Of a stretch of 64,000 bases of DNA, positions 10,828 to 57,768 are shown piece after piece. The notes under the pieces were generated by a model. That model was not told the DNA's origin. It did not search any database and worked only from the letters and a program-made list of their open reading frames with translations. Position 1 is the first letter of the stretch. Every line of letters begins with the position of its first letter. Origin of the DNA: Asticcacaulis excentricus (GTDB lineage: Bacteria; Pseudomonadota; Alphaproteobacteria; Caulobacterales; Caulobacteraceae); contig NZ_AP018827.1 of the NCBI RefSeq assembly GCF_003966695.1, positions 992,001 to 1,056,000 on the forward strand. The letters run 5' to 3'. The position numbers and the translations under genes are program-made.

Positions 10828-11022
10828 CTGTGCCACTCCCCTGCGCCATCAACCCGCAACACTATGACAGTAGCAGGGCGGGTCGATACCACAAAAACGG
10901 TAGGTTGCCTTTGGCGGAGCACAGCCTGTCAAACCGCGTCCTAAGCGCCACACTTGTCTTTATACACGCGCACCGCGCTTGACCTTCTCCCCCTGCTCCC
11001 CTACCCCCGACCCTGTGCAGAC

Positions 11023-11180
11023 GGTGCCGCAGAGATGCGGCTTAAAAGGGAAGCAGGTGTAAGGCCTGCGCTGTCCCCGCAACTGTAAGCGTCGAGTGTT
11101 CCGCCATACGCCACTGGTTGTTTCTGAACCGGGAAGGCGGCGGAACACGCCTGAGACGTGAGCCAGGAGACCTGCCCCTG
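11023..11180 (+). ncRNA. Cobalamin (adenosylcobalamin) riboswitch
   Basis: All landmark blocks of the B12 riboswitch are present in order: GGTGCCGC near the 5' end, AAAAGGGAAGCAGGTG, the core CTGTCCCCGCAACTGTAAGC (B12-box-like region, 11071-11090), GCCACTGG, CCGGGAAGGCGG, and GTGAGCCAGGAGACCTGCC closing the structure. When cobalamin is bound such elements switch off transport genes. It lies 120-140 nt before the BtuB-like receptor gene. Confidence 0.95.
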
Positions 11181-11298
11181 CTGTCGTCCTTCGCGTGGTC
11201 GGGGTGTGCCACAAGAGCGGATAAGCCTTTTTAACCGGAGGCCTTCCTCAGAGACGATTCGTGGTGCGCGCCGGTCCGTCCGGGGCGCTCGTCCTGTT

Positions 11299-28597: not shown

Positions 28598-28674
28598 TGG
28601 TGACCCCTGCAGGACTCGAACCTGCGACCTCTGCTTTAGGAAAGCCTTGCTCTATCCGGCTGAGCTAAGGGGCC
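28598..28674 (-). tRNA. tRNA-Arg (anticodon CCT)
   Basis: 77 nt including an encoded CCA. Acceptor stem GGCCCCT/AGGGGTC, D arm GCTC...GAGC, anticodon loop TTCCTAA with CCT, T arm GCAGG-TTCGAGT-CCTGC are all present. The anticodon stem has only three Watson-Crick pairs next to the loop (GCT/AGC); the outer two positions are A27-G43 and G28-A42, a tandem purine mismatch. Such genes are common integration sites, and the lower-GC patch lies on its 3' side. Confidence 0.93.
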
Positions 28675-37417: not shown

Positions 37418-37450
37418 GTTGCCTGAAAATGCGCGGCATGAAGATACTAA

Positions 37451-37568
37451 CGACCGAAGATGCTGACCGCATCCGGCCGTCGAAAAAGCAAGACCGTCTC
37501 ATATGTATCAGCGACATGAGACGGTCTCGAATGGAATACCAAGAGTCATTTTCAATGACTCTTGGTAT
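37451..37568 (+). repeat. Three-hairpin dispersed repeat, copy 1
   Basis: Three hairpins follow each other: stem 1 CGAC 37451-37454/GTCG 37479-37482 with inner GATGC/GCATC; stem 2, 12 bp, 37491-37502 with 37516-37527 around the loop ATGTATCAGCGAC; stem 3, 15 bp perfect, 37536-37550 with 37554-37568 around TTC. A second copy lies at 57500-57619 in the opposite orientation with compensated base changes. It lies between the rpmB terminator and the next gene. Confidence 0.9.
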
Positions 37569-37640
37569 GACTGATTTCTGAAATCGCGCAGTCGAAGCGA
37601 CATATGCCCGGCACAAAGGCCCTTACACAAGGAGCCCTTT

Positions 37641-57499: not shown

Positions 57500-57619
57500 T
57501 ACCAAAAGTCATTGAAAATGACCCTTGGTATTCCTTTCGAGAATGTCTCATGTCGCTGATACATATGAGACATTCTCGTGTCTTCAACGGCCGGATGCGG
57601 TCGGCATCTTCGGCCGTTG
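57500..57619 (-). repeat. Three-hairpin dispersed repeat, copy 2
   Basis: Reverse orientation to copy 1. Stem 1 is CAACGGCCG (minus strand, 57619-57611) with CGGCCGTTG and inner GATGC/GCATC; stem 2 has 14 perfect bp (57578-57565 with 57551-57538) around the same 13-nt loop; stem 3 has 14 pairs including two G.U pairs (57530-57517 with 57513-57500) around TTC. Most stem-2 differences from copy 1 are compensated. Confidence 0.9.
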
Positions 57620-57768
57620 GTATTACGCTGTGGGAAAATCTTGACCGGCCTGCATCCATCCGCCCCAGCGGCGGACATTAAGAGACAAGACGGGGTATCA
57701 GCGCGTAGAGTCATGTACCGCCCAGCCTTACCCTGTCTCATGGCAACTCACGCAACCGGAGACAAACG

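Follow-up and report, generated by a model that had tools for sequence, protein, structure and literature searches.

A mobile three-hairpin DNA element of Asticcacaulis excentricus found in TNA triplets and over-represented at stop codons

The 64,000-nucleotide stretch of the Asticcacaulis excentricus genome analysed here (contig NZ_AP018827.1, positions 992,001 to 1,056,000; hereafter the window) contains two copies of a repeat made of three consecutive hairpins, one on each strand. A preliminary description of the repeat left two readings side by side, a conserved structured RNA read in one direction and a mobile hairpin element. The question is which of them agrees with the copies found in this and other genomes, and with the places at which these copies lie.

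The repeat unit and its distribution

Both copies were found in the window with the features ascribed to them (Table 1). The stem-2 loop ATGTATCAGCGAC and the stem-3 loop TTC are identical in the two copies, two pairs of stem 2 differ between them and both are compensated, and stem 3 of copy 2 has two G.U pairs on the strand read in the preliminary description. The repeat itself thus stood, and only its borders had been placed slightly off. The unit is 123 bp long in both window copies, with TACC at its start and GGTA at its end, and in copy 1 two pairs of stem 1 are broken, both as A.C, at alignment columns 9-33 and 5-37. Folding z-scores for the two strands of each window copy were −7.2, −8.8, −9.9, and −7.4, and none of 200 shuffles folded as well as either copy on either strand. 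None of the Rfam families matched the repeat at gathering score when the window was scanned; the scan also found a cobalamin riboswitch at 11004-11193 (+) and a tRNA at 28601-28674 (−), both ordinary.

Table 1. Coordinates of the two copies of the repeat and of their parts in the window
Feature	Position	Strand	Basis
Copy 1 of the three-hairpin element (L001)	37445..37567	+	Alignment and model match, 136 bits
Copy 1, stem 1: left terminal hairpin, two broken pairs	37448..37482	+	Alignment columns 4-38
Copy 1, stem 2: linker hairpin	37489..37529	+	Alignment columns 45-85
Copy 1, stem 3: right terminal hairpin, with GAGTC and GACTC (GANTC sites)	37537..37567	+	Alignment columns 93-123, sequence
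TGA to the right of copy 1; left triplet AGA, duplication not intact there	37568..37570	+	
Copy 2 of the element (L020)	57500..57622	−	Model match, 146.9 bits
TAA to the left of copy 2 (5' side on the copy-2 strand); right triplet GAA	57623..57625	−	

A BLAST search with copy 1 revealed at least 40 long matches in the own genome. A covariance model, R1, was derived from the first 30 loci minus L030, which contains an insertion (29 loci), and 55 matches of at least 74 bits, 53 of them at least 115 bp long, were found with it in the 3.79-Mb own genome; beyond these, the genome contains reverse-strand echoes and partial units consisting of lone stem-1 or stem-3 hairpins. Among 41 genomes, comprising the own genome, 24 others of the genus, and 16 from other families of the order, R1 was positive in seven, with 72 matches in the own genome (echoes counted), 67 in G001, 62 in G023, 54 in G019, 20 in G010, 7 in G014, and 6 in G009. 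The covariance-model search suggested with the preliminary description yielded further copies in both the own genome and its genus relatives; match numbers similar to those of the own genome occur in three of the 24 relatives, and the 16 genomes from other families gave no match. When 200 genomes drawn from the order (42 genera) were searched with stricter filters, the own genome alone matched, and 20 pieces of 20 kb (400 kb) from one genome of another genus of the family contained nothing convincing, the best scores being 18 and 16 bits. The nearest named records to the repeat are from Asticcacaulis.

The units of G009 and G014 are 132-133 bp long and have the same ends as the window unit; their hairpin arms differ in sequence and keep their pairing. 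All seven full-length units read in these two genomes have TAA on both sides, and two of the seven are at a stop codon.

Copy 1 also matches 15 plasmid records (13 from Agrobacterium, one from Allorhizobium, and one from Asticcacaulis), and R1 scored 39.6-97.2 bits on the units of A. vitis/Allorhizobium plasmids; to judge by sequence, plasmids of the Rhizobiaceae carry clear homologues of the repeat. On a Pannonibacter plasmid, 17 whole or partial stretches resemble a related mosaic unit. No match to the repeat was found in phage records, and none to a G009 unit in plasmids. On an A. salinitolerans plasmid (L363, L372), about 2.9 kb containing IS66-type genes separate the halves of a unit, and an IS66-type insertion appears to have split the copy; the plasmid copy in L362 likewise borders on an IS66-type end.

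Stem-1 and stem-3 hairpins also occur alone, with TACC or GGTA ends (L111:2501 and 3417, L114:2501, L112, L115), as if terminal hairpins could persist singly. A model of the right hairpin, with which an autonomous copy was sought, matched nine of 21 genus genomes, its counts not being copy numbers because the palindrome can match on both strands and at most 150 candidates per genome were scored. About 130 bp before the hairpin were read at 19 loci; three run into N and one is at a contig end. Many identical right hairpins are present in G009, suggesting recent spread. A second dispersed repeat of about 140 bp (L004:933-1072; also, e.g., G000:C1:31736-31882) has many copies in most genus genomes, several of which are without the three-hairpin unit.

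Insertion sites and stop codons

The context of the unit was recorded for all own matches except L104, whose right end is lost (54 of 55), and for 81 of the 83 model hits taken from other genomes, L191 and L212 being truncated at contig ends. Together these are 135 copies from five genomes, those from other genomes being part of the matches listed. The triplets on the two sides of the unit are identical in 33 of the 54 own copies and in 85 of the 135 copies among the matches listed, the remaining 50 of these 135 being without identical triplets. The duplicated triplet is TNA, the middle base of which varies from copy to copy and agrees across the two sides; of the 135 copies among the matches listed, 108 have TNA on their left and 119 on their right.

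Related genomes provide sites with and without the unit. The L004 site is filled in G000, G001, and G019; the sequence there is continuous in G010 (TTGATCAGGCG) and nearly continuous in G015 and G023. The triplet of this site, TCA, was read from the empty sites because the filled copies have unlike triplets on the two sides. The insertion corresponding to window copy 2 is filled in G001, with TAA on both sides, and the site is empty in G010, where TAC, not TAA, is read at the insertion point. At the site of window copy 1, G015 has no remnant, and G010 and G023 have a short one with both ends. This remnant (L267 and L266, respectively), about 30 bp long with both element ends kept, looks as after an internal deletion across the hairpins. 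The L008 site proves nothing, since the relatives do not form a plain empty/filled pair there and hold other sequence, several of them with a small open frame in the intergenic position that the element occupies in the own genome (L217, L218, L220, L221). The TACC...GGTA ends, the duplicated TNA, and the two loci with empty sites identify the unit as a mobile DNA element. None of the 135 copies among the matches listed lies wholly inside a predicted gene, and two of the own copies overlap a predicted frame at its end.

In 22 of the 54 own copies, the triplet is the exact stop codon of the neighbouring gene, with the stem-3 end adjoining it in 18 of these and the stem-1 end in 4. The same holds for 52 of the 135 copies of the five genomes among the matches listed (43 and 9) and for 37 of 101 distinct sites (30 and 7), a set that omits copies without a right TNA, with short flanks, or with the same right flank. 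The background was taken from the window and the flanks of the own copies, where 190 of 2983 non-coding TNA triplets are stops (6.4%), so that 22 of 54 corresponds to a one-sided p of about 5e-13; genes in the genomes were called by our own codon-usage script, the same for copies and background, one overlapping window frame being dropped. The kind of gap does not explain this excess, because it is seen in convergent gaps (14 of 21 own copies versus 16.7% in the background) as well as in tandem ones (8 of 24 versus 9.5%); the corresponding values for the other genomes, among the matches listed, are 15 of 21 and 13 of 36. Another 28 copies, 8 of the 54 own ones included, lie between divergent genes, where a position at a stop is impossible. 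The two window copies are both away from stop codons. The stop triplets used are TAA and TGA, the stem-3 end mostly faces the gene, and the duplicated triplet leaves the stop of the gene intact.

Insertions away from stops prefer TNA-G-N-C, with 50% G and 50% C at these positions versus 25% and 27%, respectively. Seen from the other side, the motif reads GNC-TNA, i.e., a last codon and a stop. The orientation ratio expected from it is near 2.2, and the observed 30 to 7 is compatible with this value (p 0.15). As the sole cause of the stop excess, the motif was rejected, since it predicts 6-7% of insertions at stops versus the 37-41% seen. The site preference accounts for part of the orientation and not for the size of the stop excess, most of which is therefore to be ascribed to further targeting or to survival. 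On plasmids, the right triplet is the exact annotated stop at 4 of 12 distinct sites (L361, L365, L370 = L371, L373), the last codons being CAG, GGC, GTC, and GTC and the plasmids coming from other bacterial families; one place was taken per record, the split-copy pieces L363 and L372 were excluded, and the gene table is incomplete. The titles and the first parts of abstracts in the open-access literature offered no account of stop-codon insertion by such elements.

The unit could also act as an mRNA 3'-end element, the hairpins being kept after landing since they protect or end the mRNA. The 22 own copies beginning at a stop codon, the 21 own copies between convergent genes, and the orientation bias of 30 to 7 over distinct sites are what such a role would leave; we nevertheless consider it improbable, since the aligned copies have, by sequence, no U-run after the hairpins, the orientation bias is compatible with the site motif, and the wobble pairs described below are without strand preference. 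Even less probable is an element of the REP/REPIN kind, whose terminal hairpins would be recognised by a Y1 (RAYT-type) transposase and which would move as single-stranded DNA. In line with it, both ends carry terminal hairpins whose pairing is preserved by compensated changes in distant forms, and lone hairpins occur, but the chemistry of Y1 transposases is not known to leave a true direct duplication with a matching variable base, which is what is seen here, next to TACC...GGTA ends.

Stem covariation and wobble pairs

The covariation of the stems, from which the idea of a structured RNA had been drawn, proved to be real in several alignments. In alignment A2, made without the model, changes on both sides occur at 7 of 42 pairs, and the 24 cells with such changes compare with 10.8 in shuffles, none of 500 shuffles reaching the observed number. 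In the model-fitted alignments, 21 of 42 pairs are changed on both sides in the own genome (74 cells versus 22), 21 of 42 in the other genomes (108 versus 36), and 26 of 42 in the plasmid units (41 versus 11; 1 of the 14 rows is the reverse-strand match of L359), counts that lean towards the model and are inflated by the relatedness of the copies.

An RNA read one way is expected to favour G.U pairs on its own strand. Over 135 distinct sequences (136 rows), 63 G.U and 154 A.C cells were counted; without the most skewed pair, at columns 100-116, there were 57 G.U versus 72 A.C cells (p 0.22, 135 distinct copies). At columns 100-116, A.C was found in 82 copies and G.U in 6, which runs opposite to the preliminary argument that the G.U pairs of copy 2 fall on one strand. 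Because G.U does not exceed A.C on that strand, the reading as a one-direction structured RNA is not supported, while the reading as a mobile hairpin element is borne out by the duplicated triplet and the empty sites. The symmetry of the wobble pairs is compatible with a hairpin acting as DNA, or with one arm being repaired from the other. A structured non-coding or cis-acting RNA that is read one way and spread by duplication, to which the three hairpins with compensated changes in several alignments could be attributed, is thus very unlikely in view of the wobble counts, of copies lying in both orientations to genes and, in 8 of 54 own cases, between divergent genes, of the lack of an Rfam match, and of a TNA duplication and empty sites such as a DNA element leaves. 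A repeat can have compensated stems without acting as RNA.

Relation to known repeats and possible mode of movement

The Caulobacter CcrM-associated intergenic repeats (CIR) were reportedly described by Chen and Shapiro in 2003. The account of CIR in a 2007 review describes units of about 110 bp in which a linker joins two hairpin arms, with TA termini and GANTC at a terminal loop, places them never inside genes, marks their target duplication with '?', and leaves their mode of movement unexplained (PMC2229807); a 2024 review, where it deals with CIR, terms them strictly intergenic (PMC10969869). The preliminary statement that no named family fits the repeat thus holds for Rfam but not for build, which matches that of CIR as outlined in the 2007 review. 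The element is likewise alphaproteobacterial and of similar size (123 bp), with two hairpin arms and a linker, TA at its termini (TACC...GGTA), GANTC in a terminal hairpin, and copies outside genes (0 of 135 wholly inside, among the matches listed). It differs in that the linker carries a third hairpin, that GANTC lies in the stem-3 arm, not in the loop, in the window lineage (in the stem-1 loop region in G009 and G014), and that duplication and empty sites are shown here. The element may accordingly be called CIR-like in build, being likened to CIR by description (PMC2229807).

At least one GANTC is present in 44 of the 54 own copies, mostly in the stem-3 arm, and, among the matches listed, in 20 of 23 copies of G001, 18 of 25 of G019, 22 of 27 of G023, and 4 of 6 of G010, as well as in all 10 units of the A. 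vitis type, 5 of 5 of G009, and 3 of 4 of G014. The own copies have on average 0.96 GANTC per copy versus 0.47 in letter shuffles (1.5 per kb in the window), an enrichment which is not a test of selection because the copies are related.

By description, the element also resembles Bru-RS of Brucella (103-118 bp) and RIME of rhizobia, likewise palindromic intergenic repeats of Alphaproteobacteria as presented in the sources on them (PMC2267715, PMC2266754, PMC2573895). MITEs such as RUP, with IS630-Spn1, are also short and non-coding, with inverted ends and a target duplication, according to the same 2007 review (PMC2229807); the element differs in duplicating TNA, not TA, and in that no insertion sequence with matching ends was found (PF01609 and PF13586, five genomes). 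REPINs and REP sequences, reportedly the subject of PMC3116915 and PMC3733652, are mobile palindromes of intergenic DNA too, from which the element is set apart by its TACC...GGTA ends and 3-bp duplication. Titles and opening lines of abstracts in the open-access literature contained nothing to the point on repeats of Asticcacaulis.

Taken together, the unit is very probably a non-autonomous mobile DNA element of CIR-like build that lies in TNA triplets and is over-represented at stop codons. Its two terminal hairpins (stems 1 and 3), running from TACC to GGTA and joined by a linker with the third hairpin, enter a TNA triplet, which is thereby duplicated, as the duplications and empty sites show. 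Copies lie outside genes and more often than expected at TNA stops, where the duplicated triplet keeps the stop whole. A DDE-type transposase encoded elsewhere may act in trans on the TACC ends. The arms may stay matched since the hairpin works as DNA, or since one arm templates repair of the other, and movement may be coupled to replication through the GANTC (CcrM) sites of the terminal hairpin. The stop excess could arise from targeting, from survival of harmless insertions, or from both.

Elements of the IS1031 group duplicate TNA. No helper transposase was found among the PF01609 and PF13586 loci of the five genomes or, among the matches listed, when the own genome was searched for the end pattern; two multi-copy insertion sequences have ends that do not match those of the element. 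An IS5-like element with a core of 854 bp and the ends TAGGCTCAGG...CCTAG is present in five near-identical copies (L132, L136, L140, L143, L145); its ends rule it out as the helper. One could tentatively extend the proposal and suppose that the insertion machinery of alphaproteobacterial mobile hairpins prefers stops (GNC-TNA), with CcrM sites tying movement to the passage of the replication fork, although we regard this extension as rather doubtful.

A repeat of CIR build is seen here with its duplication, its empty sites, and its landing place, duplication and movement having been left open where the 2007 review treats CIR (PMC2229807). Landing on stop codons makes the choice between targeting and survival a clear testable question. 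By landing on a stop codon and copying it, a mobile element would be able to spread without breaking genes, and an insertion machinery that prefers stops, if true, would be a safe harbour at codon resolution.
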